A stretch of 42,937 nucleotides of DNA from a virus, in the IMG/VR virus record IMGVR_UViG_3300047667_000265, positions 1-42,937 of that record; one strand, written 5' to 3'. The notes below the pieces were generated by a model. It was not told where the DNA came from and made no database searches. It worked only from the letters and a program-made list of their open reading frames with translations. This document shows, piece by piece, positions 143 through 32,323 of the stretch; positions within the stretch are counted from its first letter, which is position 1, and every line of letters begins with the position of its first letter. The position numbers were made by a program, and so were the translations under genes.

Positions 143-2496
143 CAGCCGCGCCTAACTTCCTAGAACCCGCTATCCCAGCGAGCTTTCCGGTCACGGCACC
201 GCCACCTGACTTCTTCGCACCCACTACCGTCACTGACGAGGATGAGTTCAAGCTCACAGCGGCACAAGGCAAGGCGTTACAAACACTCACCAGCGATGCG
301 ATGTACTGCGCCCTCGGTGGTGGAGCACGTTGTCTTTCAGGTGACACGATGTTGGATGGACACACACAGACAGTTGCTGAACAGGCGCTTTACCCTGACA
401 AGCAGGTGCGTGTGCTCACAACCCACGGTTATCAATTGGTGGAGCCGCCATTTAAGAAAGGCACCACAGAGCTATTACACATAACGACGACAGAAGGTCG
501 CAGTGTCAAGGTGACACCTGACCATAGATTCTGGTCAGGCACCAACTGGGTGAGAGCCGACTCTTTGTGTCTTAACTCCCCTTTGGCCTCCCTGTTATCC
601 GAGCGAAACCATCATCGGTCCAGTTCGGAACCTTACCTTTCAAGGTTACGCGAAGGTGCTCAGCGTTGGACGCGAACACTCGTAAGTTGGATGGATCATT
701 GTTTTGGATATCACCGTCAATGTGATCCACGACTTCCCCCTTCTTCAACGGACGATCAAGACTTTCGTGCATCACTATCCGGTGAACAGGTGCGTAACCT
801 GTTGGGTCTGTCCCCTGCTTGCCACGCTTCGCTATTGCGCGAATCAGGTATCCAAACGGACCAGTCTTTGACACTCGACGAAGTATGTAACCTGATCGGT
901 CGTGAGTATGACCACCTTTCCAAGAAGGATGGTTCTCCATCTGTTGGTTGTGCTGTTTTATCCGAAGACCCCGTTTCCGCGCAAATTTACGCACGGTTTC
1001 GGAATTCACGTTCAGTTCGTCGGATATTTGAGGCGCTGTCATCTGAGACTCAATCATCGCACGAAGCATGTCGTAACGATCGATCCCAATCGGGCCAGTT
1101 CTTTTATCCCGCATATTCTGATACTCCTATAAACAATTATGTACTTGATAAGGTTTTGACTGTAACTCGAACCCCCAAGGAAGATTACTATACATTAAAC
1201 GTACCGTCAACCGAACAGTATTTCGCGAACGGATTGCTGCACCATAACTCTGGAAAAACTTTCTTGCTTGTCATGGCGGTATGTGCTAGGGCGCTGAAGG
1301 AGCCTAACTCAAGGCATGCTATATTTCGTTTCCGTCTTAATGCATTGATCTCATCTATTGTCCGTGACACGCTGCCCAAGGTGTTTAAGCTGAAATGGCC
1401 TGCCCTATGGGAGCTATGTAAGTACAATGGTCAGGACAACTTTCTGACTCTCCCGAACGGCTCCGAGATCTGGTTCGCAGGTCTCGATGATAAGGACCGG
1501 ACAGAGAAGATCCTTGGTATGGAGTTCGCGACACTATACTTCAACGAGTGCTCACAAATACCTTACGCGTCGGTCATTATTGCACTGACACGATTGGCAC
1601 AGAAGACGAAGACACTGACACTCAAGGCGTACTACGACTTTAACCCACCATCCAAAAACCACTGGACGTACCTACTCTTTGTCAAGAAGATCAACCCTGA
1701 TACCAAGCGTCCTCATCGTCACGAGTTCGACTACACATTCTATCTAATTAACCCTGGTGATAACCGTGAGAACCTAGATCCTAAGTACATCAACATGCTT
1801 GATGCACTCCCTGAGAAGGCGCGTAATCGATTCCTACTAGGTCGGTTCGCTGATGATGCCGATGGTGCATTGTGGACGGAGGAAGTCCTCGCCAACAACC
1901 GAGTGCTCAATGAGGAGCTACCAGAGTTCATTCGCATTGTCATCGCAGTTGACCCAAGTGGTTGCTCAGGACCAGAGGACTTCCGGTCTGATGAGGTGGG
2001 TCTGGTGGTGACAGCACTAGGCACCAACGGTGTTGCTTATCTACTTGAGGATCTGTCAGGACGGCATTCACCAGAGGAGTGGTCGAAGATAGCGAACGAT
2101 GCCTATCACCGTCACGCAGCAGATATTGTGGTGGGTGAGAAGAACTTCGGTGGTGACATGGTGCGAGCTGTGCTGCAGGCGAACAACCCTGACCTACCGT
2201 ACAAACATGTCACAGCATCCAGAGGCAAGGTGATACGAGCTGAGCCCGTTGCGATGCTGTACGAGAAGCAGAAGATCAGACACGTAGGTTACTTCACTGA
2301 GTTGGAGGATCAACTGTGTGGGTTCTCAGTATCAGGGTACAACGGGATGAAGAGTCCTGACAGAGCTGATGCGTTGGTGTGGGCAGTAACTGAGATGTTC
2401 CCACGTATTACAGAGAGCCAAGAGACACGTAATTGGACACCGCCTAAGAAAATACCCTATAATCAATCAGCAGCCAGATTTGACCGGAGAAATTAG
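139..2496 (+). CDS. terL: Terminase large subunit interrupted by an intein
   Basis: This is the ATP-driven packaging motor and nuclease. The precursor is 785 residues; removing the intein (residues 65-370) leaves a 479-residue terminase of normal size. The Walker A loop GGARSGKT exists only after splicing, because the intein lies between R64 and S371. A Walker B-like LYFNECS follows with E470. Nuclease acidic residues are visible at AVDPSG (D605) and SPDRADA (D741, D744). Start ATG139 overlaps the small-subunit stop. Since the P-loop is split, unspliced protein should have no ATPase activity, so packaging depends on splicing. Residues 145-325 of the precursor have no terminase or intein similarity, because they are the complement of an endonuclease gene. 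Confidence 0.95.
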   Translation: MTAAPNFLEPAIPASFPVTAPPPDFFAPTTVTDEDEFKLTAAQGKALQTLTSDAMYCALGGGARCLSGDTMLDGHTQTVAEQALYPDKQVRVLTTHGYQLVEPPFKKGTTELLHITTTEGRSVKVTPDHRFWSGTNWVRADSLCLNSPLASLLSERNHHRSSSEPYLSRLREGAQRWTRTLVSWMDHCFGYHRQCDPRLPPSSTDDQDFRASLSGEQVRNLLGLSPACHASLLRESGIQTDQSLTLDEVCNLIGREYDHLSKKDGSPSVGCAVLSEDPVSAQIYARFRNSRSVRRIFEALSSETQSSHEACRNDRSQSGQFFYPAYSDTPINNYVLDKVLTVTRTPKEDYYTLNVPSTEQYFANGLLHHNSGKTFLLVMAVCARALKEPNSRHAIFRFRLNALISSIVRDTLPKVFKLKWPALWELCKYNGQDNFLTLPNGSEIWFAGLDDKDRTEKILGMEFATLYFNECSQIPYASVIIALTRLAQKTKTLTLKAYYDFNPPSKNHWTYLLFVKKINPDTKRPHRHEFDYTFYLINPGDNRENLDPKYINMLDALPEKARNRFLLGRFADDADGALWTEEVLANNRVLNEELPEFIRIVIAVDPSGCSGPEDFRSDEVGLVVTALGTNGVAYLLEDLSGRHSPEEWSKIANDAYHRHAADIVVGEKNFGGDMVRAVLQANNPDLPYKHVTASRGKVIRAEPVAMLYEKQKIRHVGYFTELEDQLCGFSVSGYNGMKSPDRADALVWAVTEMFPRITESQETRNWTPPKKIPYNQSAARFDRRN
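572..1114 (-). CDS. HNH homing endonuclease encoded antisense inside the TerL intein
   Basis: A 180-residue protein read on the opposite strand to terL. Residues 12-56 look like a helix-turn-helix (ISDELNVNSETVRKFARKRG), as in many phage HNH endonucleases. The HNH core spans about 105-153: VHRIVMHESL (H111), EVVDHIDGD (D130, H131), NNDPSNLRV (N139, N143) and H153, matching the HNH_3 type. The ATG at 1114 is preceded by AGGAG at nine bases. The gene starts just before intein block F and stops (572-574) just after block B, so it fills the usual endonuclease slot. Inferred role: cutting intein-free terL alleles at the P-loop to drive homing. It needs a minus-strand transcript; only a weak -10-like CATAAT (1136-1141) is visible upstream. 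The intact domain order argues against a chance shadow frame. Confidence 0.93.
   Translation of the reverse strand: MRDKRTGPIGIDRYDMLRAMIESQMTAPQISDELNVNSETVRKFARKRGLRIKQHNQQMENHPSWKGGHTHDRSGYILRRVSKTGPFGYLIRAIAKRGKQGTDPTGYAPVHRIVMHESLDRPLKKGEVVDHIDGDIQNNDPSNLRVFASNAEHLRVTLKGKVPNWTDDGFARITGRPKGS
1124..1128 (-). promoter_or_regulatory. Shine-Dalgarno of the antisense endonuclease gene
   Basis: On the minus strand AGGAG lies nine bases before the ATG at 1114, within the context ATAGGAGTAT. It decides the start of the nested gene and shows that the antisense frame carries its own initiation signal. The same bases encode part of the C-terminal splicing region on the plus strand. Confidence 0.75.
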
Positions 2497-2733
2497 ATGG
2501 GTAAGGAAATTGAAAGAGCAACTAAAGATGTAGCCAGCGTGGCAACACTTGGTAAATCGAATTACATTAAAAATAAACTCATGCCTGACACACCTGACCT
2601 ACCAGATGAGCCAGAGGGTGCGCCCGTAGCCGACGACGATGCAATTAAAACTGCGAATCGACGTAAGGCCGCTAAGCGTAGATCAGGTGGTAGAGCCGGT
2701 ACTATTTTAACGGAGGGATCGAAACTTGGCTAA
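2497..2733 (+). CDS. Small conserved protein between terminase and portal
   Basis: A 78-residue protein starting directly after the terL stop. The N-terminus is MGKEIERATKDVASVATLG; the middle is acidic and proline-rich (DTPDLPDEPEGAP); the C-terminus is basic, then RRSGGRAGTILTEG. Small proteins with a similar basic R-x-G-R-A-x-T-I-L-T ending are frequent at this position in podovirus genomes, as far as I recall. No enzymatic motif is visible and the function is not known. A virion assembly role is inferred from position only. It overlaps the portal start by eight bases. Confidence 0.8.
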   Translation: MGKEIERATKDVASVATLGKSNYIKNKLMPDTPDLPDEPEGAPVADDDAIKTANRRKAAKRRSGGRAGTILTEGSKLG

Positions 2734-4273
2734 ATCCTTCACAGAGCTTGCGGCGCTCAGCAACCAGCTCTTTAAGTTCCAATATCCGATGCTGACGTTG
2801 TATCAAACGTTGGCTGACCATTTCTATCCTGAACGAGCTGACTTCACAACAACACGTAACGTAGGCCAGGAGTTCGCTGATAACTTGGTGGACTCATACC
2901 CTGTCATTGTACGTCGTGACCTTGGTAACGCATTCAATGCCATGTTACGTGATGGTCATTGGTTCAAGATATCCACACAAGAAGCTAGTCATGATCGGGA
3001 AGGTACCGCATGGTTAGAGTGGGCAACCCAAGTACAACGTAAGTCAATGTATCAACGTAGTGCGGGGTTCAATCGTGCTGTTAAACAGGGTGATCATGAC
3101 TTCGCTACTTTCGGTCAATGTGTCATCTCAATCGAGATGAACCGTAAACGTAATGGCCTACTATATCGTAACTGGCACCTGCGCGATGTCGCATGGCGTG
3201 AGGACGAGACAGGTGAGGTGGGTGACATAACCCGCAGATGGAAGCCTACTAACATTGACCTCAAGACTATTTTTGGTAACAAGGTGCATCCGAAAGTTAT
3301 AGAGGCGTGTATCAAAGAACCCTACTCTGAAGTTGATGTAAGACACATTGTCTTATCATCAGAAGTGTACGGTGATGAATCAATGAAGCAGCACCCCTAC
3401 GTCAGCATTTACATTGACATGGTGAATGAGCACGTCATTGAGGTTCAACCTCTTACAAACAAATACTATGTTGTACCACGATTTCAAACCATCGCGGGTC
3501 AACCCTACGCGTACAGTCCAGCGACGGTAGCAGGTCTACCTGATGCGCGGTGTTTACAGGCGATGACTCACACACTACTTGAGGCGGGTGAGCGGTACGC
3601 ACGACCACCGATTATAGCCACATCTCAAGCAGTACGAGGTGACGTTGACTTGGCACCCAATGGTATTACATGGGTGGACAAGGATTATGACGAGAAGCTA
3701 GGTGCAGCACTAAGACCTATGTACCAGAGCCAAGGGGGATTCCCTATTGGGCTTGAGTTACGTAGTGAGATTAAGAACATCCTGTCCAGCGCATTCTATC
3801 TGAATAAGATTACGCTACCGCAGGGTGATCACGAGATGACTGCGACTGAGACCATCGAACGCATGAAGCAGTATCGACGCGAGGCGTTGCCACTATTTAT
3901 GCCAGTTGAGTCTGAGTACAACGGTCAAGTATGCGAGATCACATTCGATCTTATGATGAAGAATAACCTTTTCGGTTCACCTCACGACGTACCACAGTCT
4001 TTACGTGGTGCAGAGGTCGAGTACCAATTCGAATCACCATTGACATCCAGTGCTGAAGAGAAGAAGGTTAACCAGTTCCACCAGACAGCACAGTTACTTG
4101 CTGAGACCGTACAGTTTGATCCTACAGCCACAGCAAACGTGAACCTAGATGAAGCATTACGTACAGCAGTGAAGGGCACAGGGGCTCCTGAGTTCTGGCT
4201 GAACGATCCTAAACAAGTAGCACAGCAAAGAGCACAGCAGCAGGCGCAAGCAGCACAGGAGCAAGTGCAATGA
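2726..4273 (+). CDS. Portal / head-tail connector protein (T7 gp8 type)
   Basis: A 515-residue protein resembling the phage head-tail connecting protein family. That family forms the dodecameric portal at the capsid vertex, through which DNA is packaged and ejected. The N-terminal segment (LADHFYPERADFTT…) and the region around residues 370-390 (HEMTATETIERMKQYRREALPLF) are typical. The start is a TTG at 2726, supported by GGAGG at 2712-2716; the first ATG downstream would cut off the conserved N-terminus. The C-terminus is a glutamine/alanine-rich tail (QQRAQQQAQAAQEQ). It overlaps the next gene by four bases. Confidence 0.93.
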   Translation: MAKSFTELAALSNQLFKFQYPMLTLYQTLADHFYPERADFTTTRNVGQEFADNLVDSYPVIVRRDLGNAFNAMLRDGHWFKISTQEASHDREGTAWLEWATQVQRKSMYQRSAGFNRAVKQGDHDFATFGQCVISIEMNRKRNGLLYRNWHLRDVAWREDETGEVGDITRRWKPTNIDLKTIFGNKVHPKVIEACIKEPYSEVDVRHIVLSSEVYGDESMKQHPYVSIYIDMVNEHVIEVQPLTNKYYVVPRFQTIAGQPYAYSPATVAGLPDARCLQAMTHTLLEAGERYARPPIIATSQAVRGDVDLAPNGITWVDKDYDEKLGAALRPMYQSQGGFPIGLELRSEIKNILSSAFYLNKITLPQGDHEMTATETIERMKQYRREALPLFMPVESEYNGQVCEITFDLMMKNNLFGSPHDVPQSLRGAEVEYQFESPLTSSAEEKKVNQFHQTAQLLAETVQFDPTATANVNLDEALRTAVKGTGAPEFWLNDPKQVAQQRAQQQAQAAQEQVQ

Positions 4274-4536
4274 TAGAAGTCGTGATCAATGGTAAGGCAC
4301 ACTCAGTAGATGAGGCACGTAAAATATATGTACAGCTTCATGCTTTGTTCGGTGAGAAGAAATACGAGACATCATACAAACCACACACTTCGTTCTCTAA
4401 AGACCTGATCTGTGGTGGTGATATTTTGGTAAAACCATATTCTTCGATGGATGAACTTGCATTCAAAGTTGAAGAACAGTGGGGACCACCTGAGTCGTTA
4501 AACCAACGAGATACAGTATGTACAATGGATATGTAA
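4270..4536 (+). CDS. Hypothetical protein
   Basis: An 88-residue protein starting at an ATGA overlap with the portal stop. It begins MIEVVINGKAHSVDEARKIY, which looks like a small alpha/beta fold, and shows no catalytic or metal-binding motif and no membrane segment. It lies between the portal gene and a 155-base non-coding stretch. I do not recognise the family. Confidence 0.7.
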   Translation: MIEVVINGKAHSVDEARKIYVQLHALFGEKKYETSYKPHTSFSKDLICGGDILVKPYSSMDELAFKVEEQWGPPESLNQRDTVCTMDM

Positions 4537-4691
4537 AGACTCCCTAGGTCGGGGAGTACCCGACTTAGACGAAAGCTTTCTAATAGGAGGTGATTAGTCT
4601 CGTGCAGTGTACGTGAAAGCGTGTCAACCTGTAGGCTTAGCCATCCTCAAGGACCGCGAAGCCATTATAATTATAATCCGTGGAGGATAAT
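4537..4691 (+). promoter_or_regulatory. Structured intergenic leader before the Tad2-like gene
   Basis: A 155-base gap in a genome with almost no gaps. It holds two overlapping inverted repeats that cannot form together: ACTCCC…GGGAGT (from about 4540) and GTCGGG…CCCGAC (from about 4550). It also holds the palindrome GAAAGCTTTC and the stem CTAAT…ATTAG whose loop exposes AGGAGGTG (4585-4592). That loop is a near-perfect Shine-Dalgarno, but only a GTG at 4602 follows, with a four-codon reading frame ending in TGA. A second Shine-Dalgarno (GGAGG, 4682-4686) serves the next gene at 4692. This looks like an attenuator or regulatory leader; no known riboswitch was recognised. Confidence 0.4.
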
Positions 4692-5162
4692 ATGAGAGTG
4701 AAAGTAAGAGAACAGTACGATGCTATCGTGGGTAATTATAAAATTCGAATGGATGACACTGAGTCAGGGAACCATGTTTTCGATGAATATGAAGAAGGTG
4801 GTAAGCCACAGGCTCTTGCTCGAATGAGAGAGAAGCTAGAATCGATGGTTACACCTGAATTGGATACCGAGATTGAAAGTAGAGGTTTTGGTTGGGCTAT
4901 CGATAAGTTAAAGAATGGTGATAAGGTAGCTCGTCAGGGATGGAACGGTAAGGGAATGTGGTTAATATTAGTCCCTGGTTCAGAAAACATCAAACCCGTG
5001 GCTGGCACTCCGTACAGTAAAGCAGGTCTAGTCGAAGAAATACAGATACTTCCCCACATAGATATGTACACCACTGACAGCTCAGGCCGTCGTGCGATGT
5101 TGTGTGGGTGGTTGGCTTCACAAACTGATATGTTATCAGACGATTGGCAGACAGTTCCATGA
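4692..5162 (+). CDS. Tad2-like (DUF2829) anti-defence protein with an N-terminal extension
   Basis: A 156-residue protein. Residues about 68-155 match the DUF2829 family: FGWAIDKLKNGDKVARQGWN, GKGMWLILVPGS, LPHIDMYTTD and GWLASQTDMLSDDWQ. DUF2829 is the Tad2 family, whose characterised members bind the cyclic ADP-ribose-type signal of Thoeris defence and so block immunity. Whether this copy binds such a ligand is inference. The first 65 residues (MRVKVREQYDAIVGNY…) are not part of the usual short Tad2 and are unrecognised. ATG4692 is chosen over the in-frame GTG at 4680 because GGAGG sits five bases before it. Its place among virion genes is unusual for an anti-defence gene. Confidence 0.85.
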   Translation: MRVKVREQYDAIVGNYKIRMDDTESGNHVFDEYEEGGKPQALARMREKLESMVTPELDTEIESRGFGWAIDKLKNGDKVARQGWNGKGMWLILVPGSENIKPVAGTPYSKAGLVEEIQILPHIDMYTTDSSGRRAMLCGWLASQTDMLSDDWQTVP

Positions 5163-5437
5163 GCGATGTACCTCAGTCTCTCAAAGTAGATAAATTAACA
5201 AAGCAAGAGGTTGTTGCGTTGCAGGATCTCAATAAAGGGACCGCGACAGAGTATCAGCAGAAACTTGCACTGCATGTTATTGTGAATAAATTTGCACGAG
5301 CACAAGATTTATTATATATACCAGATTCATTTGACCAAACAGCGTTGCTCAATGGACGAGCGTTCGTAGGTCAGCAAATACTAAAATACTTAAATATACC
5401 CGTGGGGAAACTAGATGAAACACTTTCTAATGAATGA
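5159..5437 (+). CDS. Hypothetical protein, possibly Bbp19-like
   Basis: A 92-residue protein, largely helical. It contains FDQTALLNGRAFVGQQILKYL, a segment that recalls small proteins preceding the scaffold gene in other podoviruses (Bbp19-like). That comparison is from memory and weak. ATG5159 overlaps the previous stop as ATGA and is preferred to an upstream TTG at 5144. It overlaps the scaffold gene by 23 bases. Confidence 0.7.
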   Translation: MSDVPQSLKVDKLTKQEVVALQDLNKGTATEYQQKLALHVIVNKFARAQDLLYIPDSFDQTALLNGRAFVGQQILKYLNIPVGKLDETLSNE

Positions 5438-6359
5438 AGCAGGCGACGGTGATCTATCAGGTGGCGCAGCACCAGTAGACACCGTAATTAGCGCAGCAGC
5501 CGATCCAGCACCAGCAGCCGATCCAGCACCAGCAGCCGATCCAGCACCAGCAGCCGATCCAGCACCAGCAGCCGATCCAGCACCAGCAGCCGAAGTTGAT
5601 TGGCGTGATGCAATGGCGGGTGGCGACGAAAAGAAGATGAACCAACTCAAGCGGTTCACGGATGTCGGTAAACTGTCTGAAGCATATTTCAATGCACAAG
5701 AAAAGATTCGCGCGGGTGAGACTAGCAATGGTCTACCCGACAACCCTACTGATGAACAATTAACTGCATACCGCGAAGCAAACAATGTACCCGCTACTGC
5801 TGCTGACTACGCGTTGTCTCTCGATGAAGGTTTAGTCCTTGGTGAGATGGACGAAGGTATCATGAAGGGCGTGTACGATGTAGCCCACCAGAACAACGTG
5901 AGCAACGAAGCGGTTAGTCAGATGACCAATGCTATGTTGAAAGGGCGTGAGTTAGAGAGTCAAATGCTCACCAAGCAAGATGGTTTAGATGTACAAAACT
6001 CTAACGCAATGCTCCGTGATAACTGGGGTCAAGATTACGAAATGAATGTGGGTCTGGTGCAAGGTGTACTCGGTAGCCTGCCTGAATCAGTCCGTGATGA
6101 TTTCGCCAGCGCTCGATTAGCAGACGGCACTGCAGTATTCAACTCACCTGAGATGATGAACTTCTTTGCTGAAGCAGCTCGTGCAATCAACCCTGCAGCT
6201 ACGGTTGTACCTGCTGGTACCGGTAACCCAACACAAGCAGTCACAGGTCGTATCGCTGAGCTTGAAGGTAAGATGAGCGGTGACGGATGGCATAAGGACA
6301 GTGCATCACAAAAGGAGCTACTGAACCTCTACGATGCGAGAGAAAGGTTGTCTAAGTGA
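5415..6359 (+). CDS. Capsid scaffolding protein (putative)
   Basis: A 314-residue acidic, largely helical protein between the portal and the major capsid gene, the standard scaffold position. Residues about 29-58 are five copies of ADPAPA, a flexible linker. After that come WRDAMAGGDEKKMNQLKRF and the segment ADYALSLDEG, both typical of T7-group scaffold or capsid-assembly proteins. The C-terminal ~60 residues (ELEGKMSGDGWHKDSASQKELLNLY) are the likely capsid-binding helices. The start is preceded by GGGGA at six bases. Scaffold proteins direct procapsid assembly and leave before maturation; that role here is inferred. Confidence 0.8.
   Translation: MKHFLMNEAGDGDLSGGAAPVDTVISAAADPAPAADPAPAADPAPAADPAPAADPAPAAEVDWRDAMAGGDEKKMNQLKRFTDVGKLSEAYFNAQEKIRAGETSNGLPDNPTDEQLTAYREANNVPATAADYALSLDEGLVLGEMDEGIMKGVYDVAHQNNVSNEAVSQMTNAMLKGRELESQMLTKQDGLDVQNSNAMLRDNWGQDYEMNVGLVQGVLGSLPESVRDDFASARLADGTAVFNSPEMMNFFAEAARAINPAATVVPAGTGNPTQAVTGRIAELEGKMSGDGWHKDSASQKELLNLYDARERLSK
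5499..5588 (+). repeat. Five tandem 18-bp repeats in the scaffold gene
   Basis: The unit GCCGATCCAGCACCAGCA is repeated five times without mismatch and encodes (ADPAPA)5. The copies are identical at synonymous positions, so expansion is recent or the array is kept uniform by slippage. The copy number is likely to vary between isolates and in assemblies. Confidence 0.95.
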
Positions 6360-6727
6360 AGTATGATGACTTCGACGTAGAGACTTTCAACGACAAAGGT
6401 ACGGTACGTGTGACGCATAAAGCGTCCGGTACCACTCGGATGTCTAATGATGTCACACAAACCGGTATCACATATTTGATGCAAGATATCGGTGACGAGA
6501 TTAACGCGAAGAAGCGACCTCTATCGTTCGCCATAGCACTGGCAGCAGTGATCGAAGAGGGAAAGGGTATGCGTATTGAGGGTGATACCGCAGTGGTACG
6601 CGCTCAGTTTCCAGATGAATATTCGATGATGGATCTACCATATCTCTACATCGATCGTGAAGTCGGTAGGCACCCTTGGACGGTAGATTCATGCGCACCT
6701 TTCGCTACATGGTTGATAGTTGATTAA
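6356..6727 (+). CDS. Hypothetical protein before the capsid gene
   Basis: A 123-residue protein starting at GTG6356, which overlaps the scaffold stop (GTGA). It is a mixed alpha/beta protein (FDVETFNDKGTVRVTHKASG…, …RIEGDTAVVRAQFPDEY) without recognisable motifs. No signal peptide or membrane segment is visible. Coupling with the scaffold gene suggests a capsid-assembly role, but this is only context. Confidence 0.65.
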   Translation: MKYDDFDVETFNDKGTVRVTHKASGTTRMSNDVTQTGITYLMQDIGDEINAKKRPLSFAIALAAVIEEGKGMRIEGDTAVVRAQFPDEYSMMDLPYLYIDREVGRHPWTVDSCAPFATWLIVD

Positions 6728-7705: not shown

Positions 7706-7718
7706 GGGAAAATGACTT

Positions 7719-8003: not shown

Positions 8004-8015
8004 TAGTATCCACGG

Positions 8016-8048
8016 AAAAGGTGCCTCTTAGCGGGGGTACCTTTTTTA
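8016..8048 (+). terminator. Rho-independent terminator 1 after the capsid genes
   Basis: AAAAGGTGCC pairs with GGGTACCTTTT (one G-U pair), followed directly by a T run ending at 8047. It closes the capsid transcription unit. Confidence 0.8.
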
Positions 8049-8053
8049 CCTTT

Positions 8054-8517: not shown

Positions 8518-8520
8518 GTC

Positions 8521-24100: not shown

Positions 24101-26050
24101 TATGCTGGCGACAAGGCAGTGGACCGAGTTAAAGGATTCTTTGCTGGGTTCGCTAATCTGCGCAATAAGATTCGTAAGATTGATGGCTTCAGAGAAGATG
24201 ACCAAGGCGCAAGTTATGAAGAAGTGTACCTCACAGTAGAGGATGCACATAACACTGAGCTAGATAACAAACGTAAGTTGTTCGAGATCTACCAAGCAGA
24301 ATTGACAGACGTAAATAATGTCGCCATCAACAACCATTGGTTTAGTGGCGGAGAGATCACACAGACCAATGGTGATGTGTTCAAGTTCAGCACAGAAGAT
24401 CGATTCATGATTGCGCTTTACTGGGGTACTGATTCTAGTCGTAAAGCAGTGATGGAAGGTCATGGAGTAAACAACACTGACGTAATGAACATCATGTCCA
24501 CAATGTCGGATGCTGAACTGAAACTTGTCAACTCAATGTGGAAGCTCAATGAGAACATGTGGTCAGGTATTGCGAACACAGCAATCGAACATCGTGGTGT
24601 AGCACCGAAGAAACTAGCACCCACACCTTTCGTGGTGAATGGTATTGAGATGACAGGTGGACATCAGACAATATTCTACGAAGGAAGTGCTGAAGGTTTA
24701 AACGTGGTTGGTGAGGATGTAGCAGGTATGTTCAACCAGATTCAAGCGGGTGAGGCAACGGCTGCGAAAGAGCGTGTTGGTAGTGGGGGTCGAAAGGTTC
24801 TACTATCCAAAGACAATATCACTCGTGCCATTGATGAGAACCTTCACTATGAATCTTTCTACAAACCGAGTGTGAAGATTGCCGCGATTGTAAATGACAA
24901 AGCATATAAAGCTGCAGTTACCAAGAAGCACGGTGATGTGTTCTACGAATCTTATGTTAAGAACCTACAGAACATCGTATCAGCTCGACCAGATCGTGAA
25001 GGCAATAAGGACATCGCTGCCTTCCTGAAACACATTCGTCGTGCGAGAACATACAGTGTTCTACATTACAGTATACGAAACACAGTTCAGCAGTCCACAT
25101 CGATACCCATAGCCATTAGTGAGGTGGGTGCTCAGAACTTTGCGAAAGCTGCTGCAAGTTTGGTGGGTACTGAAGGTAAACATAACCGAGAGTTTATAAA
25201 GAGTAAATCCAAATTTATGGCGAACAGGGCACAACTGGTTAACCGAGAGGCCAATGAGTTCCTTCGTCAGATAGCTATCGGTGGTAAGGTTGAGAATGCA
25301 TTTAAGGTTTTCTCTGACCATGGGTTCACCATGCAGACGGCGGTGGACAGTGTCATTGCAAACCCTACTTGGTTAGCTAAGTACAATGATGGTATGCTAA
25401 AGCATGGTAACGAGAAGGTGGCTATCAGTCAGGCTGATACGGCGGTCAGTGAGTCAGTAGGTTCAGGGGCAGATTTGCACCTTGGTACGATGTTTCAGTC
25501 TACCAATGTACAGTCAGTAAAAGCGATCACTCAGTTTGGTTCGTGGTTCAACAACTACTACCAGCGAACATACAAAGCGACACAAGGGTACGGTAGTTTT
25601 GAACATAAGCGACAGATATTCAGTGCTATGGTTTACCTACCGATATTGGTGAGTGTGATGAACGCAGCTTTGACAATGGACTTACCAAAAGAAGATGAAG
25701 AGATTGAACTGTGGATCGGTAAGAAGTACATAGAGCATCTGGCAGGTATGGTACCCATCGTCGGTGACTTCGTATCTTCGATGTTCGGATGGAGGCAGAC
25801 TGGCTTGATTGCAGACGCAATGTCCACTGGTGGTGCCGTAGTATCATTAGCAACGAAGGAAGATCAGTCAGGATTAGATACTGCAATAGATGTACTCAAG
25901 ATCCTTAACACCGTCATCCCGATATCAGGGTCAGGTCAGCTAACACGACCTCTTGAATTTATATCATCTGATAATGAAGGTAATGAGAACCAAGATAACC
26001 CAGCACTCTCTGTTGCTCAGGCAATCGTTAAAGGTAAAACTAGGAATTAA
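21182..26050 (+). CDS. Giant polyvalent internal protein: ADP-ribosyltransferase plus zinc metalloprotease
   Basis: A 1622-residue protein, the largest here. Residues about 66-390 look like an ART-PolyVal ADP-ribosyltransferase: AYHGTPHKFDEF (Y68, H69, G70), GWGLYFAGNKGIAEWYR, GIKGLRFLDD and NYVIWDDSTV. Residues 439-443 are HESMH (HExxH), with DQHETLAESFEVYLREG as the downstream acidic helix, so a zinc metalloprotease. The long middle is helical and basic. The C-terminus (VLHYSIRNTVQQSTSIP, LVSVMNAALTMDL) is typical of large internal proteins carried in the head. Polyvalent proteins are injected with the DNA and modify or cleave host targets; targets here are unknown. It may also take the place of T7 gp16. 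Confidence 0.85.
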   Translation: MSLSNCIRKAGKALSTSDADSISTLADEIESTGVERSLAENQAVEQHLTKVQGDIDAMLPKTLEQSAYHGTPHKFDEFSLDAMGTGEGAQAFGWGLYFAGNKGIAEWYRDAVTQRRGGDKIVIDGKPYEDIWDATEAGAMTQAELELADNFEFNDVTHSLGVTEGLDLFLKEVNKYGSDSDKALAQNLVERISEEKLEGQLYEVDIPEDSTLLDHDKTLDQQPPDIQKALGKLKNRLERKRVLDGYLEGINSEWGELTGAELYKLVTKAAEEAVLPVQPIEMKQAIQPDQLASMYLDSIGIKGLRFLDDTSRQKGNNVTYKGKKINVGKETDPEKLAAAYIGSYGRDNAVSMLKMDDHADSVQWVDKIDDADVGDGTTHNYVIWDDSTVTVEAVNEEKRQVQVLKQEGTDDIPRGLFTALNGEHTIELSEASDVSTFLHESMHLFTVMEGIFAKENGITSNQQAMLDSVGAKSFEELTVDQHETLAESFEVYLREGKAPSLKLADAFGVFRSWLTNLYQNLVNLPNQKLDADMRQVFDRLLATEAEINEVAAHPEYQELFRSIEQSGMTDAEWAKYQQAVEKRKSRATTTVVDKIVKQLRTRKTREWKKEKAPLIEQEKERLSKLPVYQILSNTLVEPMNHAMVKAIAGGDKKIMGKLIGRAKKDGIPPYQYSEVYGYDSDLEMLTDIANTESLGKAADRAAEQIMVGRHGDILNDGSIETEIHEALHTSANADIVLAEIKALNKRKGDINRSLLKLGAKKLIGSMKHPDIQPDKYRRLERKAALKAERATDPKEKIAAKTQQLANQYLFNEATRVKAEIGKWSKHIDYVRKHDYNTKVVDGHFTNAMKTIANLYRPKRKGKDAAERTEKELRDVTDFYNGQKEILNDRVAQEDPQLVEVSDLINRGKMSEFEFTYYEDMTADQLEGVYRNLKNLRFAGGKAITDPDNNRAAITNATAGAEANPKANRARKRGYAGDKAVDRVKGFFAGFANLRNKIRKIDGFREDDQGASYEEVYLTVEDAHNTELDNKRKLFEIYQAELTDVNNVAINNHWFSGGEITQTNGDVFKFSTEDRFMIALYWGTDSSRKAVMEGHGVNNTDVMNIMSTMSDAELKLVNSMWKLNENMWSGIANTAIEHRGVAPKKLAPTPFVVNGIEMTGGHQTIFYEGSAEGLNVVGEDVAGMFNQIQAGEATAAKERVGSGGRKVLLSKDNITRAIDENLHYESFYKPSVKIAAIVNDKAYKAAVTKKHGDVFYESYVKNLQNIVSARPDREGNKDIAAFLKHIRRARTYSVLHYSIRNTVQQSTSIPIAISEVGAQNFAKAAASLVGTEGKHNREFIKSKSKFMANRAQLVNREANEFLRQIAIGGKVENAFKVFSDHGFTMQTAVDSVIANPTWLAKYNDGMLKHGNEKVAISQADTAVSESVGSGADLHLGTMFQSTNVQSVKAITQFGSWFNNYYQRTYKATQGYGSFEHKRQIFSAMVYLPILVSVMNAALTMDLPKEDEEIELWIGKKYIEHLAGMVPIVGDFVSSMFGWRQTGLIADAMSTGGAVVSLATKEDQSGLDTAIDVLKILNTVIPISGSGQLTRPLEFISSDNEGNENQDNPALSVAQAIVKGKTRN

Positions 26051-26053
26051 ATT

Positions 26054-26803
26054 ATGGCAAGTTCAATACAATCAAGATTAGGTACGGCACCAGAAGAAGG
26101 GTGTAAAGCTCCGGTCAAGGTGGTGGCGAACACACCTATCACACTATCGGGTGAGCAGACGATCAACTCAGTCGCAGTTGTGGCAGGTGATAGGGTGCTG
26201 GTGAATGGTCAGGTGGATCTGGCTGAGAACGGTATCTATAACGTCAGCGCCACAGCGTGGAGTTACGCGAAGGACTGGAACAAAGCGAACGATGTTATCG
26301 CAGGTATGTTAGTTCCCTCATCTGAGACAATGGAGTTGTACCAGCTAAAACCATTCACAGGAAATTATACTGCTGCTGTCACCGAGGTATCATTCCAGAC
26401 AGGTGCAGTTGCTGCACCACAGAGACAAAATCTACTGGGTTCTGTTGCCGCTGCTAAAGTATTTACACTCACCACGATGGATTACCGTATAGGTGCCAAC
26501 GACCTAGAGGTGGAGCGCAATGGTCAAGTGCTTATTCTAGGTAAACATTACACTGAGACAAGTACTACCACAGTCACCATTATCACCGCTGTACTCTCAT
26601 CTGATGATTTTGTTTTTAAATCTAACACAGGTGTTTCTCCTTCTACATCGATCATCCCTACATATATCGTAGCGTCATTACCTACTGCTAGTGCGAACAA
26701 AGACGCATTGATTACAGTGAGCGATGAGGCGGGTGGGTACGCTTTAGCATTCTCCGATGGTACTAACTGGCGCAGGTCTACTGATCGAGTGGTAGTCTCA
26801 TGA
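26054..26803 (+). CDS. Tail fibre/spike adaptor-like protein
   Basis: A 249-residue protein. Residues 20-95 (KVVANTPITLSGEQTINSVAV, GDRVLVNGQVDLAENGIYNV, AWSYAKDW) form a widespread phage stem domain that joins fibres or spikes to the tail. Residues about 135-190 (FTLTTMDYRIGANDLEVERNGQ) look like a second beta domain. It probably fixes a receptor-binding protein, possibly the spike two genes downstream. Confidence 0.78.
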   Translation: MASSIQSRLGTAPEEGCKAPVKVVANTPITLSGEQTINSVAVVAGDRVLVNGQVDLAENGIYNVSATAWSYAKDWNKANDVIAGMLVPSSETMELYQLKPFTGNYTAAVTEVSFQTGAVAAPQRQNLLGSVAAAKVFTLTTMDYRIGANDLEVERNGQVLILGKHYTETSTTTVTIITAVLSSDDFVFKSNTGVSPSTSIIPTYIVASLPTASANKDALITVSDEAGGYALAFSDGTNWRRSTDRVVVS

Positions 26804-27201
26804 TTAAACTAATCACACCACCACGCACCGTTGACCGTCATGGATCTGGTGCTTGGCAAGCAGCTAGGGGTTATGGTAAGCATCACGGTATCGACTATGC
26901 TGCATTACCTGACTCTACTGTACTGAGCACCACAGTAGGTACGGTGACTAAGTTAGGTTACATGTACAACGATGACCTCAGTTATCGGTATGTGCGCGTG
27001 GTAACACCATTAGGGTTCACCATTAGATACTGCTACGTTAATCCTACAGTTAAGGTTGGTGACGAAGTATCCGTTGATCAACCCATCGGTGTAGTGCAAG
27101 ATATAGCTACGCGATACGAAGGTATCACTCCTCACATACACGTAGATATTATGCAGGATGGTAAGTACATCAACCCTGAAACATACTTCGGAGAAAGATA
27201 A
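26800..27201 (+). CDS. M23 (LytM-type) peptidoglycan endopeptidase
   Basis: A 133-residue protein that is essentially one M23 domain. Zinc ligands and the active site are visible as HHGID (H28 and D32) and PHIHVD (H112, H114). The TVGTVTKLGY and VKVGDEVSVDQPIGVV segments are the usual strands. M23 enzymes cut peptide crosslinks in peptidoglycan. There is no signal peptide, so it acts either as a lysis enzyme released by the holin downstream or as a virion-borne enzyme, since it lies between two tail genes. Confidence 0.85.
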   Translation: MIKLITPPRTVDRHGSGAWQAARGYGKHHGIDYAALPDSTVLSTTVGTVTKLGYMYNDDLSYRYVRVVTPLGFTIRYCYVNPTVKVGDEVSVDQPIGVVQDIATRYEGITPHIHVDIMQDGKYINPETYFGER

Positions 27202-28928
27202 TGGGTACAGAATTAGCACCAGATCAAGTTGAAGGTTTAACCGTTGAACGTTTTGGCGCAGTGGGTGATGGGGTCACAAACAGTGGGACTGCGTTGTACG
27301 ATGCTTGTGTCTACGGACAGACCGTTGTTATACCTGCATCCGGTACGTTCATATTCGAACTAATAGAAGCTCAGATCGATACAATACTAGATCATCTCAA
27401 GTTTATTAGAGCAGAGCAGCCTATAATTTTACAATTGCCTACAGTAGATCACACAAGAACTACAACTATACACCCTGGCAGCCCATACGGTAAAAACGTT
27501 ACAGTTAGAGGGGCAGCTACTTCTTTCTTGGCTGCAACGGGTGTAACTACTGATTCAGTAGCTGCTCAAAATCACAGAGTAACAATCACAGGTATTAGCT
27601 CCACTTCTAACTTTACAGTAGGTGGTTTTGCTTTCGTAAAGAGTACAGCGCCTACGACAGATGGGAACAAAGTTTTAGAAGGTGTATGGGAAGTAACAGC
27701 ATTAACAGCTACAACAGCACAATTAAAAAACACAGCGTTTAAGTCAACGCTACCTACGTTTACATTGACAAGCTGTTCAATTGCCCCAGCACTTACAATA
27801 TTAAGAGTTCATGGCGCAGTTGGTATAGATATGTTTAGTGAAGGTCATGGTGGTTTATGGCAATCAATGGTGTTGGCTGGTAATAATACTGGTGGGTCAG
27901 AGGCTCACGCTATTAGAAACTACGACAGCACTATAGAGCTTGCCAGCTCAACAGCTCAGCCTTTTGGATGTAATGGCTTTGAAGGCCATCAGATATATAC
28001 TCTAGCTGGTGGTGTTACGGTTGCTTTCGATTCATATTCTTCTAATGCAGGCCGTCACGGTTATTACGAGCTAGACGGTTCATCTTTAGTAGGTACTAGA
28101 ATTATAGGGACAGGCAACGGTTTAGCGGGTCACGCTTGTAGCACAAACTCAAACGCAGGTACATCGCAAGCTAACTGTTCAGGCAACTTGCAGCGGGGGC
28201 AGACTTGCGCAGGAACATCTATCATAACAAGTGCATCAAGCTTTATGTATGAGAATGGTGATTCAGGTGTAAGGTGTCAAGATAATGGATTCTTTAACCT
28301 AACAGGATCGGTAATAGCTGGAAGTGTATCTTATGGACTTCGAGCGAACGGAGGTACAATATTCGGATCATACACAACAGATTATGGGAATGCCGCACCA
28401 CTGTTAATAGAAAATAATGGTGTAATAGATAGCGAATCAAAACGATACTACCGAGTAGGAGCAGGAAGTGGTGCTACAGCAATAAGTACGGCTTCTGGTT
28501 ATGTAACAGATAGTGATACAGCTAACGGTGTTTCTATACTAACACCAGAAGCGTCATATGGTTACTTGTGGTTTGGTAATGAGGTTGACAATACTGAAGC
28601 TGGTTTTAGATATAGAGGCACAAGTAATTCGCTAGACATGATCTCTAACGGTGCAACTAGGTTCTCTATTAACTCATCTAACCACTTCACTCCTTTTGTT
28701 GATGACACATATGACATCGGAACATCTGCTAAAAGAAATAGAGCGGTTTACGGGAAAGAGATAAGGCATGGGGATGGTTCAACTATTATCACCAATGGCG
28801 CAGGTACACCGGAAGGTGTCGTGACTGCCGCAGTGGGTTCGATGTTCACTAGAACTGATGGTGGTGCAGGTACCACATTGTATGTAAAAGAGTCAGGTGC
28901 AGGTAACACAGGATGGGTAGCTAAATGA
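27201..28928 (+). CDS. Tail spike with pectate-lyase-like beta-helix (putative depolymerase)
   Basis: A 575-residue protein. The opening VERFGAVGDGVTNSGTALYDA is the hallmark of phage tail spikes with pectate-lyase folds. The middle has beta-helix spacing (GVRCQDNGFFNLTGSVIAGS). The C-terminus (DIGTSAKRNRAVYGKEIRHG, GSMFTRTDGGAGTTLYVKES) is a common trimerisation/tip cap. It probably binds and may cut a surface polysaccharide. Arginine is mostly AGA here while portal and capsid use CGT/CGA, suggesting acquisition from elsewhere. It overlaps the holin start by four bases. Confidence 0.85.
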   Translation: MGTELAPDQVEGLTVERFGAVGDGVTNSGTALYDACVYGQTVVIPASGTFIFELIEAQIDTILDHLKFIRAEQPIILQLPTVDHTRTTTIHPGSPYGKNVTVRGAATSFLAATGVTTDSVAAQNHRVTITGISSTSNFTVGGFAFVKSTAPTTDGNKVLEGVWEVTALTATTAQLKNTAFKSTLPTFTLTSCSIAPALTILRVHGAVGIDMFSEGHGGLWQSMVLAGNNTGGSEAHAIRNYDSTIELASSTAQPFGCNGFEGHQIYTLAGGVTVAFDSYSSNAGRHGYYELDGSSLVGTRIIGTGNGLAGHACSTNSNAGTSQANCSGNLQRGQTCAGTSIITSASSFMYENGDSGVRCQDNGFFNLTGSVIAGSVSYGLRANGGTIFGSYTTDYGNAAPLLIENNGVIDSESKRYYRVGAGSGATAISTASGYVTDSDTANGVSILTPEASYGYLWFGNEVDNTEAGFRYRGTSNSLDMISNGATRFSINSSNHFTPFVDDTYDIGTSAKRNRAVYGKEIRHGDGSTIITNGAGTPEGVVTAAVGSMFTRTDGGAGTTLYVKESGAGNTGWVAK

Positions 28929-29128
28929 ATAAATTCTTTCTGAAAAGTAAAACTATCATTGGTGCTTTAGTTACAATGGCACCTACCATTGCCACACTAT
29001 TCGGTTTCACATTTACCGAAAATGATTCTGTGATGATTTCACAGGTCGCAGATGGTATCATTCAGATTCTCGGTGCAGCATTAGTTGTATACGGTAGACT
29101 CAACGCGAAGGAGAAGTTGTATGTTTAG
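28925..29128 (+). CDS. Holin (putative, two membrane segments)
   Basis: A 67-residue protein with a short basic N-terminus and two hydrophobic stretches, IIGALVTMAPTIATLFGFTF and VADGIIQILGAALVVYG. Size, topology and position next to a peptidase and a lipoprotein fit a class II holin, which forms the inner-membrane lesion at lysis. The call is by topology and context. Confidence 0.75.
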   Translation: MNKFFLKSKTIIGALVTMAPTIATLFGFTFTENDSVMISQVADGIIQILGAALVVYGRLNAKEKLYV

Positions 29129-29390
29129 ATTCATCAATGTGTTTCTCATGGTGTTCTTCATCACAGGGTGCACTACCCCCGTTGTACCAAAGACAGTCAA
29201 GCAGATTCAACTTGCCAGCTATGCTGAACTCGCACAGATCACCGTAGATGTACGTGATGCCTGCTCAGAGCGGTTGATCACAAAAGATACATGCATTGAC
29301 CTATCCGATAAGTTGAAGACAGCAGCGAGGTTGATAGACATCAACCAGCCTGCATCCGACATCATTGAATTAATAAGGAGTACCCTATGA
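29121..29390 (+). CDS. Small lipoprotein, possible outer-membrane spanin
   Basis: An 89-residue protein. The N-terminus MFRFINVFLMVFFITGC is a lipoprotein signal with the lipobox ITGC, so the mature protein starts at a lipidated Cys and PVVP. A helical remainder contains DVRDACSERLITKDTC. ATG29121 has AAGGAG at 29108-29113 and is preferred to an upstream in-frame TTG at 29085. Position after the holin suggests the outer-membrane spanin, but it is less proline-rich than Rz1 and no clear inner-membrane partner is seen. Confidence 0.65.
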   Translation: MFRFINVFLMVFFITGCTTPVVPKTVKQIQLASYAELAQITVDVRDACSERLITKDTCIDLSDKLKTAARLIDINQPASDIIELIRSTL

Positions 29391-29599
29391 ACGTTGCACA
29401 ACTTGATCTAGCATTATCAGTAATACGTTTGGTGAGTGACAGTGTTCAGTCCCGAATGAAGCAGCATGACGAACTGATGGACCTATTCAATACTGCATTG
29501 GAAGAAGGGCGCGACTTCACTGATGCAGAAGTAGCATTGTGGAAAACGAAAGCCGAAGAAGCTATATCAAGTCTTGACGATGTGATCGCCAACCTATAA
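29387..29599 (+). CDS. Small helical protein of the lysis cluster
   Basis: A 70-residue acidic helical protein (SVQSRMKQHDELMDLFNTAL, KTKAEEAISSLDDVIANL). It has no membrane segment or signal and starts at an ATGA overlap with the lipoprotein stop. It could form a coiled coil. The function is unknown; position suggests a lysis accessory or a late virion protein. Confidence 0.6.
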   Translation: MNVAQLDLALSVIRLVSDSVQSRMKQHDELMDLFNTALEEGRDFTDAEVALWKTKAEEAISSLDDVIANL

Positions 29600-29609
29600 A
29601 GGTCTTACC

Positions 29610-29951
29610 ATGCCAAATACAGAAGCGATAGCACTACTACAAGGTCAACTTGCCAAACAGAAATCTGACCTGACATTACACATCGTGGAGTTTAATGAAC
29701 ATGTATCCGACGAGCACAAACGGTGGGACCACTTTATACAAGTTCAAGAAGAGAACACCAGGGTCAACCATGAGCTTGCTGTAACTATGTCAGCACAGGT
29801 ATGTGCCACTAAGGATATGATCGAAGCATGGAACGCTACCACTGGTGCTATTAAAGTGGGTCGCGTCCTTGGTAAGTTTGTTAAATGGGCATCAGGTTTA
29901 GCTTTCATCGGTGTTGGTGTGCTATGGGTCGTTGATAAGTTTGGCAGCTAA
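29610..29951 (+). CDS. Coiled-coil protein with C-terminal membrane anchor
   Basis: A 113-residue protein with a helical N-terminal part (LLQGQLAKQKSDLTLHIVEF) and one hydrophobic segment near the C-terminus, FVKWASGLAFIGVGVLWVV. The topology is reversed compared with a classical inner-membrane spanin, so that role is unlikely. It ends the rightward late operon; its stop overlaps the stop of the convergent helicase gene. Confidence 0.6.
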   Translation: MPNTEAIALLQGQLAKQKSDLTLHIVEFNEHVSDEHKRWDHFIQVQEENTRVNHELAVTMSAQVCATKDMIEAWNATTGAIKVGRVLGKFVKWASGLAFIGVGVLWVVDKFGS

Positions 29952-32323
29952 AAGAAGTTAACCTCGAGTGCATTCGTGGTGATACCTTTCCGGTAACGTT
30001 GCAGTGCATCTTTCAAACCAGTTTGATTATCTGTCTTCCTCTCGATTGCATCTGCTACTGCTAGATCCACCGTGTCGTTTGCCAAAATTCTGATAATAGA
30101 CACAGGGTGAGTCTGCCCTTGTCGATCAATTCGAGCGTTCATCTGCTCATATAATTCCAGTGACCAGTTCATTCCGAACCACACCATGATGTGACCCGTA
30201 TCTTGCAGGCCATCTATACCATGTCCCATAGAGTTATGTGAAATGAACACTTCACCTTCATCGTTACGTACTAAGAACCGGTGACGAGGACCGCAGTCAA
30301 CTAGGTCGTATACTTTTTCTTTCCGTAAGTTGAATTCCTCGCAGAATCTACTGCTTGATCCCCGTTCATTCCTCTGTTCAGTCTCATCAGTAACATCATC
30401 TTGCTGCATCCTGACCTCCGACACAGTTCCGCGAGGTGCATTATCTCCCCCTGATAGGTTTCGAATCGGTTGTTGCGTTTGTTGGATTGCTGCTTGAACA
30501 TCGTCACCCACGTACAGTTCGCCTTTGAATATCCTTTGTTCACATCCACTCTCTCGATGGTTAAATTGTCCTGATAGGTTTCGTGCATATCCTCGTAGAA
30601 TACTTTGAAGTCTCCCCACTCTTTGCACATTCCTATCCCACGACCCGCGTAGTCCTTGTTGCCTAGATCCTTCGAGCGATTCTTCAATCCTTGCCAAATG
30701 CACCAGATCCGCGTGTGCGTTTTGTAATGGTATCGCTCCACCGTGCAATGCCGGCAGTGTTTCCTCTCCAACCGATTGTGTTTCATCACATTCTGATGAA
30801 GTATCTTTGACACAGTTCCGCAGTGTAAACATTTCGCTAAGGTATTTGTCATTGCCTTCGTATTGGTATAGTGCTTTTCTTTTAGTATCTCCACAATCTC
30901 TAACATTCTGCGCCTGCTCCCATCTACCTTGAATCAGTAATCTATGATCAGGTGTCATCGTTATACCGAAACGGTTAACAACTTCTTTGTAACCTGAATA
31001 AGAGCAACCTGAGTGCGATACGAACTCCACACCGTCATGTACTAGGTCAGTGCTCTTTACGTCAATCAAGTTAACCCATCCTCTATGTTGAGTCAACACT
31101 TGAGTCCTTGGATGTAAGCAGGCTGGGTGACCCACAAGCAACTTTATCTTACCCTCGCGCCAACGTTTGAGAATACCCGCAGTTGCGCTTGCCTTCTCTG
31201 CTGTCAGGTTGACGGGCTTATACTTTTTAAACTTGGTCATGATACGCTGGGCATCTGCTTTGAAGCTGTAGCTGCACAACACTGGCGAACCACCCGCCTC
31301 CTCAAGTACTTCCTCTAATGCGTCAAGCTTGGCATCATGTACCTTGGTCCATTCATCGGATTCGGCTGACAGGTACGCAGCACCATTAGCAATCTGACAG
31401 CACTTATTAGAGACTGCTGCTTTGCTGAACACTTCGAGATCATCACCGTTGTCCAGTGCTGCGAACATCTGAGCTTCCATCTCATTATATGCTTTACGTG
31501 CTTTCGCTGGTAGATCAACCATCATGTTGGTGACCTTGACTGCCGGTAGATCCAAGTAGTCCTTGGCATCCATCTTGAGCGTTATGTCGCTGATCTTCTG
31601 CTCAATGAACTGTTTACCGATGGTGGTGACTTCACACCCCCACCCCATATAATCTGACTTGAAGTAGCTGTCTTTGAAGTGAGTCACAAATTCACCTAGA
31701 CGATCACCACCGTCGATAGCCAGGAACTGACCGAACAGATCTAGGTACCCATTAGCTGCTGGTGTGCCAGTCAGACCCATGCGGTACTTGAAGTGAGGTA
31801 TCATCTTCCTCCAACCATGCAACTTGATTCTGATTTCTTTGCCATCGGTTCCGGTGCGATCTGTATAACCCCCTGCCATTCTTTTACTGGTGGAGTTCTT
31901 GAACTTACTGATCTCATCATAAACAACCATGTCATAAGGCAAGGGCTTACCCTGGTCGATGTAGTAATGTAACAGTTGCTCACAGAACCAGTTGGCATTT
32001 TCATAGTTCACCATGTGGACATCTGCATCAGCGAACATGGCACGACTTCTACGCATGGGTGTGCCATGAATGGTGCTGAATCGTAGGTGCTTGGTGTGCT
32101 CCCACTTCTGAGCCTCTTGTGCCCATACAGAGTTGATCACCCTGACTGGCCCAAAGATAAGCACCTTCTTCACCTGACCCGCGTTCATACGATCAACGAT
32201 ACTGCTGAGTGTGATGATCGTCTTACCAAGACCCATGCCGAGCCACAACATAGACTGGTAATTTGCATTGGCATGGTTAACTGCTTCACCTTGATAAAGG
32301 TGCATCATGTCTCTAGTTAACAT
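29948..32323 (-). CDS. SNF2-family DNA helicase interrupted by an intein
   Basis: A 791-residue precursor; 495 residues remain after removal of intein residues 402-697. Helicase motifs are visible in order: LGMGLGKT (Walker A, K34), VVYDEISK (DExx, D136 E137), LTGTPAANG (motif III), motif V GHPA/SMGHGIDGLQ split by the intein, and QMNARIDRQGQ (motif VI). Phage SNF2 proteins of this kind sit with VRR-NUC, polymerase, DUF2815 and DUF2800 genes, as here, and probably act in replication or recombination. Because motif V is interrupted, activity should require splicing. The gene is the last of the leftward operon and its stop overlaps that of the convergent gene. Confidence 0.94.
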   Translation of the reverse strand: MLTRDMMHLYQGEAVNHANANYQSMLWLGMGLGKTIITLSSIVDRMNAGQVKKVLIFGPVRVINSVWAQEAQKWEHTKHLRFSTIHGTPMRRSRAMFADADVHMVNYENANWFCEQLLHYYIDQGKPLPYDMVVYDEISKFKNSTSKRMAGGYTDRTGTDGKEIRIKLHGWRKMIPHFKYRMGLTGTPAANGYLDLFGQFLAIDGGDRLGEFVTHFKDSYFKSDYMGWGCEVTTIGKQFIEQKISDITLKMDAKDYLDLPAVKVTNMMVDLPAKARKAYNEMEAQMFAALDNGDDLEVFSKAAVSNKCCQIANGAAYLSAESDEWTKVHDAKLDALEEVLEEAGGSPVLCSYSFKADAQRIMTKFKKYKPVNLTAEKASATAGILKRWREGKIKLLVGHPACLHPRTQVLTQHRGWVNLIDVKSTDLVHDGVEFVSHSGCSYSGYKEVVNRFGITMTPDHRLLIQGRWEQAQNVRDCGDTKRKALYQYEGNDKYLSEMFTLRNCVKDTSSECDETQSVGEETLPALHGGAIPLQNAHADLVHLARIEESLEGSRQQGLRGSWDRNVQRVGRLQSILRGYARNLSGQFNHRESGCEQRIFKGELYVGDDVQAAIQQTQQPIRNLSGGDNAPRGTVSEVRMQQDDVTDETEQRNERGSSSRFCEEFNLRKEKVYDLVDCGPRHRFLVRNDEGEVFISHNSMGHGIDGLQDTGHIMVWFGMNWSLELYEQMNARIDRQGQTHPVSIIRILANDTVDLAVADAIERKTDNQTGLKDALQRYRKGITTNALEVNFF
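30233..31120 (-). mobile_element. Intein 2 (in SNF2 helicase) with nested +1-frame endonuclease gene
   Basis: A 296-residue element in the helicase frame. It begins with Cys1 (CLHPRTQVLTQHRGW, block A), and block B is TMTPDHRLL (T-x-x-H). Blocks F and G are VYDLVDCGPRHRFLVRNDEG and VFISHN, with Ser as +1 residue. Removal joins GHPA to SMGHGIDG and restores helicase motif V. The splicing parts are about 71 residues before and 23-28 after the nested endonuclease gene, so a mini-intein. The region between, in this frame, is Arg/Gln/Glu-rich (e.g. QQGLRGSWDRNVQRV) with no endonuclease motif. The +1 frame encodes a full endonuclease instead. Confidence 0.94.
30301..30906 (-). CDS. HNH-like homing endonuclease in the +1 frame inside the helicase intein
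   Basis: A 201-residue protein on the same strand as the helicase but one frame over. It has a zinc ribbon (C26-x2-C29 and C51-x2-C54). The catalytic region matches a phage HNH-like family: RIWCIWQGLKNRS, YAGRGIGMCKEW (86-97) and IERVDVNKGYSKANCTW (117-133). A C-terminal helix-turn-helix follows (IMHLAELCRRSGCSKMMLLM). The gene starts right after block B, and its TAG at 30301-30303 lies within the codons for VYDLV of block F, so it fills exactly the endonuclease slot. GGGAG and AGG lie 5' of the ATG (AGG at six bases). It could be translated by internal initiation on the helicase mRNA. A chance frame would not keep three ordered domains. Confidence 0.92.
   Translation of the reverse strand: MLEIVEILKEKHYTNTKAMTNTLAKCLHCGTVSKILHQNVMKHNRLERKHCRHCTVERYHYKTHTRIWCIWQGLKNRSKDLGNKDYAGRGIGMCKEWGDFKVFYEDMHETYQDNLTIERVDVNKGYSKANCTWVTMFKQQSNKRNNRFETYQGEIMHLAELCRRSGCSKMMLLMRLNRGMNGDQAVDSARNSTYGKKKYTT

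Follow-up and report, generated by a model that had tools for sequence, protein, structure and literature searches.

Complete Endonuclease Genes Probably Nested Out of Frame in Two Inteins of One Phage

The two inteins encoded by virus record IMGVR_UViG_3300047667_000265 (42,937 nt, referred to here as the window), one in the terminase large subunit (TerL) and one in an SNF2-type helicase, are very likely homing inteins, each of which holds a complete overlapping endonuclease gene between blocks B and F in another reading frame. A preliminary description of the same DNA had reported that the splicing blocks of both inteins are complete in the frame of the host gene, and that separate endonuclease genes lie in other frames (an antisense HNH_3 gene, HEG1, and a +1-frame HNH-like gene, HEG2), and its coordinates and frames proved right. 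Profile matches also bear out its assignment of the two endonucleases to unrelated HNH families, HEG1 being matched by PF13392 and phrog_10730 and HEG2 by phrog_3377. We further consider it likely that many phage inteins share an alternative architecture with overlapping, independently expressed HEGs, which is widespread and has at least three origins (counted as antisense TerL; sense +1/+2 helicase/DNA polymerase; and sense +2 TerL second site), and that phage “mini-inteins” with long unstructured linkers often hide such a gene.

TerL Intein and the Antisense Gene HEG1

The host ORF of the first intein, terL (139..2496, + strand), encodes a 785-aa terminase large subunit precursor in which Terminase_6N and Terminase_6C flank the intein (phrog_979, 3e-63). 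The intein itself (331..1248, +; 306 aa, residues 65–370) matches PF14890 Intein_splicing at 2.8e-10, above the cut-off, and is inserted in Walker A, exactly between GGGAR and SGKT, with C1 at its start and HHN|S at its end. The block B region (TPDH; 490..549, +) was placed from alignment columns T126–H129, and blocks F/G (YYTLNV...FANGLLHHN; 1180..1248, +) from the alignment of homologues. Across 83 homologues, the splicing residues are conserved at C65 (97%), H129 (83%), H369 (98%), and N370 (100%).

HEG1 (572..1114, − strand, antisense to terL) encodes a predicted HNH_3 endonuclease of 180 aa with an N-terminal helix-turn-helix-like region, matching PF13392 HNH_3 at 5e-9 and phrog_10730 at 3e-14. 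The family profile of HEG1 also matches I-HmuI (1u3e) at 1e-3, and the HNH residues D130, H131, N139, and N143 are invariant in the 58 sequences of the family. The gene occupies the interval between the splicing blocks: its stop lies a few bases past the block B region, and its start about 22 codons ahead of block F. A Shine-Dalgarno sequence, AGGAG (1124..1128, −; dG −6.8), is located upstream of the HEG1 ATG.

Helicase Intein and the +1-Frame Gene HEG2

The SNF2-type helicase precursor (29948..32323, −; 791 aa; phrog_62, 7e-122) is the host ORF of the second intein (30233..31120, −; 296 aa, residues 402–697), which was identified by family profile and fold and is inserted in motif V (GHPA|SMGHG). 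Its block B region (MTPDHRLL; 30914..30973, −) and blocks F/G (VYDLVDCGPRHRFLVRN...FISHN; 30233..30313, −) are both present, and C1, T56, H59, and N296 are invariant in 64/64 sequences of the family. The intein itself has no Pfam intein match; the family profile matches solved inteins (Neq pol at 1e-6, and Mtu RecA), and the top PDB matches of the AF2 model are all intein, Hint, BIL, or hedgehog structures (best E 5.5e-3, probability 1.0). In this model, built from 64 sequences, the Hint halves (residues 1–100 and 264–296) have pLDDT mostly >94, whereas residues 107–260 are mostly <50 and are predicted to be mostly disordered. A profile search of the host frame across residues 107–260 gave no nuclease match, and an in-frame endonuclease domain is absent there.

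HEG2 (30301..30906, −, +1 frame) encodes a 201-aa HNH-like protein with an N-terminal Cys4 zinc ribbon and a C-terminal helix-turn-helix-like region, and matches the “HNH endonuclease” family phrog_3377 at 1e-38. It starts a few codons past block B and ends within the beginning of block F; a Shine-Dalgarno-like GGGAG (30917..30921, −; dG −6.5) lies upstream of its ATG. There was no Pfam match to HEG2, and its AF2 model, although well ordered (mean pLDDT 87), gave no significant match in a fold search of the PDB. The family carries the motif ERxDxNxxYSxxNC rather than DHxDG...N, and the canonical HNH triad is absent; given this and the fold search result, the catalytic assignment of HEG2 rests on the PHROG family annotation.

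Distribution of the Antisense Family

For the antisense survey, viral contigs were searched with an HNH alignment (the window plus Pectobacterium phage homologues) that made no use of intein information, and the best 80 relatives were retained. In 77 of these 80 best relatives, the HNH gene lies antisense within one long ORF. The exceptions are L241 and L260, which end at or near a contig edge, and L216, in which the host frame is interrupted; the HEG of L216 is intact, and we attribute the broken intein host frame to a frameshift or sequencing error. When the survey loci were aligned with the TerLs of Pectobacterium/Dickeya phages and Pseudoalteromonas phage PHS3, all 83 host ORFs had TerL motifs, Walker A, and complete intein residues, and the antisense phase was identical in 83/83 nested genes. 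The GenBank record of PHS3 (L093, KX912252.1) splits TerL into pieces because of the intein, including a “terminase small subunit,” with the antisense HNH annotated as a gene between the TerL pieces. The same antisense TerL arrangement is present in a Gammaproteobacteria MAG (L344).

Distribution of the Sense Family and a Third Pairing

Helicases and DNA polymerases from phages of Shewanella, Caulobacter, Salmonella, Pseudomonas, and Streptococcus contain relatives of the helicase intein, and every one of these inteins has an HNH ORF, left unannotated, in a different frame. A viral search with helicase-type inteins returned 79 loci, of which ~76 encode an intact +1 HNH (~190–255 aa) between blocks B and F; full-length inteins were the query, so this sense survey is biased toward the same architecture. 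The nested gene is in +1 in 81/83 members of the sense family, and in +2 in the Jerseyvirus and MR14 lineages. The Jerseyviruses PVP-SE2 (L098) and Ent3 (L348) encode an unannotated 247-aa +2 HNH inside the DNA polymerase intein, which in the Ent3 record is marked as splicing domains only, with the HNH left out; ~150 isolates (Jerseyvirus and related) match the Jerseyvirus nested +2 ORF at ≥90% identity.

The TerL gene of L034 (also L350 and L351) contains two inteins. Intein 1 (1387–2175) has a LAGLIDADG-like motif in frame, and intein 2 (2920–3780) has an HNH_3 ORF in +2 (PF13392, 2e-12). Intein 2 is a third, independent alternative-frame pairing, and this gene shows that a conventional intein and an alternative-frame endonuclease can occur side by side within a single gene. 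The preliminary description had generalized from its two cases to a recurrent mode, which this third pairing upholds; altogether, >150 other virus records have an endonuclease gene nested out of frame in an intein, mostly unannotated. It had also held that such genes invade in any frame that leaves the host frame open. That part is not supported: phase is fixed within each lineage (81/83 in +1 and 83/83 in one antisense phase), which points to a small number of ancient associations, maintained through descent and homing, and a single change of frame, to +2 in Jerseyvirus/MR14. Free recurrent invasion in any frame was accordingly rejected.

The same description envisaged an endonuclease gene invading a mini-intein. 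This is plausible insofar as 69 of 80 viral relatives of the HEG2 HNH family, examined as a control, are free-standing and unspanned, with 10 nested in +1 in inteins. A possible donor-like arrangement is found in Salmonella phage SAP012 (L347:2974–3582), where a free-standing sense-family HNH overlaps the 3′ end of the DNA polymerase by 85 nt; this polymerase is intein-free, and an intein-free helicase is nearby. However, the shortened helicase mini-inteins with HEG remnants in +1 (L129:3001–3486, with the HNH core lost, and L131:3001–3435, with the HEG reduced to ~25 aa of its start) are decay products, an expected loss stage, rather than as precursors. The one remaining relative of the 80, L299, has an antisense ORF that spans its free-standing HNH gene; intein blocks are absent, and it was set aside as a chance overlap.

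Selection on the Nested Frames

To gauge chance overlap, host-frame synonymous codons were permuted for each intein (5000 trials each). For the helicase intein, 7/5000 trials gave an alternative ORF of at least 201 aa; for the TerL intein, 359/5000 gave one of at least 180 aa. Since 359 synonymous shuffles do as well as the TerL sequence itself, an open frame is weak evidence there, and we rejected frame openness as the sole evidence for that case; the case for the TerL nested gene instead rests on homology, on catalytic residues that do not vary, and on selection.

The strength of selection was estimated from relatives of the window's inteins, in disjoint pairs of close relatives, with substitutions counted by their effect on both frames. 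Nested-frame omega was 0.173 (0.152–0.195) in the sense family and 0.181 (0.154–0.205) in the antisense family. Host-frame omega was 0.64 (sense) and 0.58 (antisense) across the overlap bases, against 0.19 and 0.24, respectively, outside the overlap. With near-duplicate pairs removed, the true frame was the lowest of five alternative frames (0.176 and 0.181); frames sharing its wobble gave omega ~0.36, and the remaining frames 1.5–2.9. These values place the nested frames under strong purifying selection (omega ~0.18), with the endonuclease as the constrained product and the host frame in the overlap mainly kept open, although host-frame omega <1 in the overlap points to some host-frame constraint.

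Mobility, Expression, and Alternative Explanations

Both insertion sites are empty in other phages. TerLs 64–84% identical to that of the window are intein-free, and the empty site GGG[AS]R|SGKT was read directly in L005–L010; a scan of 79 TerL relatives (L005–L083) for TerL-intein blocks gave no match, with profiles that were used without a positive control, and the intein-free state is therefore taken from the directly read sites of L005–L010. The empty helicase site HPA|SAGHG was found in L084, L085, L086, and L090. The closest carriers of the TerL intein are 44–56% identical to the window in their exteins and 58–69% identical in their HEG. A HEG more alike than the exteins around it, together with intein-free near relatives, is what horizontal homing predicts.

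Three other explanations were considered for the nested genes. They might be fossils, that is, once-active endonuclease genes in decay, while the host frame stayed open by chance or through selection for splicing alone. Decayed versions do exist in the L129 and L131 mini-inteins; such copies are a minority, and the nested genes are intact in nearly all full-length copies. A state of decay is also at odds with the low nested-frame omega in close pairs, the invariance of H131, N139, and N143 in the HEG1 family, and the ≥90% identity of the nested ORF among the Jerseyvirus and related isolates, and we regard this explanation as highly improbable. Alternatively, programmed ribosomal frameshifting in the sense family could fuse the endonuclease to the N-terminal Hint half and so generate a conventional intein-endonuclease. 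The +1 phase of nearly all members is what a fixed +1 shift would need. However, in 83/83 members the first start codon of the nested gene is preceded by an in-frame stop at a distance of ≤60 nt (median 18), which leaves little room for a frameshift and argues against a fusion. Moreover, the nested starts have Shine-Dalgarno sequences stronger than those at other ATGs of the same strand (median dG −5.9 versus −2.7, and −5.6 versus −1.7), two lineages are in +2, and the antisense family is incompatible with frameshifting, all of which make a frameshifted fusion very unlikely.

The nested HNH proteins might also have been recruited for a phage function other than homing, such as packaging-associated nicking or the exclusion of related phages. 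Some phages have HNH proteins that act in the service of the terminase, HEGs of T4 are able to exclude competitors, and strong purifying selection would be in keeping with such a role. Against this, presence is sporadic, closer relatives have empty sites, the HEG is more conserved than the exteins, and several host genes and sites are occupied, a pattern of selfish mobility under which recruitment is extremely unlikely.

Under the preferred reading, that of homing inteins with an overlapping endonuclease gene, the host frame would be translated into a precursor with both halves of the Hint fold and, between them, a long unstructured linker that results from reading through the endonuclease gene; the two halves would then fold and splice out. 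Translation of the overlapping gene would be a separate event, at a start codon and Shine-Dalgarno site of its own. The resulting endonuclease would be expected to cut intein-free alleles of terL (at the P-loop) or of the helicase (at motif V) in co-infecting phages, and repair would then copy the intein and endonuclease gene together. The sequences themselves show intact blocks, conserved nested frames under purifying selection, a relaxed but open host frame, and initiation signals, as well as the empty sites, HEGs more similar than exteins, and mini-inteins with HEG stubs; splicing, translation of the nested ORF, cleavage, site specificity, and homing are inferred. The earlier suggestion that endonuclease production is uncoupled from that of the host protein is supported with respect to initiation, by the Shine-Dalgarno sequences; for separate transcription, the region upstream of HEG1 was scanned for a sigma70-like promoter and none was recognised.

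Relationship to Known Systems

The nearest published precedent found is the ShiLan domain / Pacc40 gp60 insertion, which lies in a phage methylase and carries its HNH gene out of frame, but has no splicing domains, is neither intein nor intron, and has no detectable Shine-Dalgarno sequence (Arsenault, Gosselin, Gogarten 2025, PMC11855218). Like ShiLan, the elements described here are phage insertions that leave the host frame open, with an alternative-frame HNH, a disjunct homing-like distribution, and a poorly structured host-frame product. Unlike ShiLan, they are splicing-competent inteins as judged by blocks and fold, they include an antisense family, and they have Shine-Dalgarno sequences.

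With canonical bifunctional inteins (PI-SceI, PI-MtuI type) they share the Hint fold, an endonuclease placed between blocks B and F, and a location within active-site motifs that are conserved in phage enzymes; the endonuclease of canonical inteins belongs to the same polypeptide, as a domain in frame, whereas in the present elements a separate gene overlaps the intein. The “fractured genes” reportedly described by Dassa et al. in 2009, split inteins whose break holds an endonuclease gene, likewise have the endonuclease encoded apart from the splicing halves, but there the host gene is two ORFs, and here one continuous host ORF runs through the endonuclease gene. Group I introns with internal or antisense HEGs, such as that of I-HmuI, also have an HNH as its own gene in a splicing element; in those introns, however, the HEG is removed at the RNA level with no host coding constraint, while here the host frame stays open. 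Our literature search found no report of alternative-frame or antisense endonuclease genes in bona fide inteins, although a preprint on non-canonical inteins of actinobacteriophages may overlap with the present findings.

The arrangement affects the annotation of phage inteins, as an intein without an in-frame endonuclease may carry a complete hidden one, and the nested HEGs are unannotated in nearly all records inspected. These elements also provide natural pairs of overlapping genes, both sense and fully antisense, where one of the two frames is essential chiefly at its ends, and which would be useful for the study of overlapping-gene evolution. They raise the testable question of why it would be favoured to separate the endonuclease from the host protein, through initiation of its own or placement on the opposite strand, for example with regard to the timing of homing versus late terminase expression.

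Observations on the Window

A megablast of window positions 1–25000 against phages gave no match. IMG/VR contig 3300047666_000629 is 100% identical to the window over positions 1–3739 and reaches past position 1; the window is therefore probably an incomplete genome. Elsewhere in the window, two ORFs of 145 aa (37872–38309, +) and 130 aa (37877–38269, −) overlap in antisense over nearly their full length.
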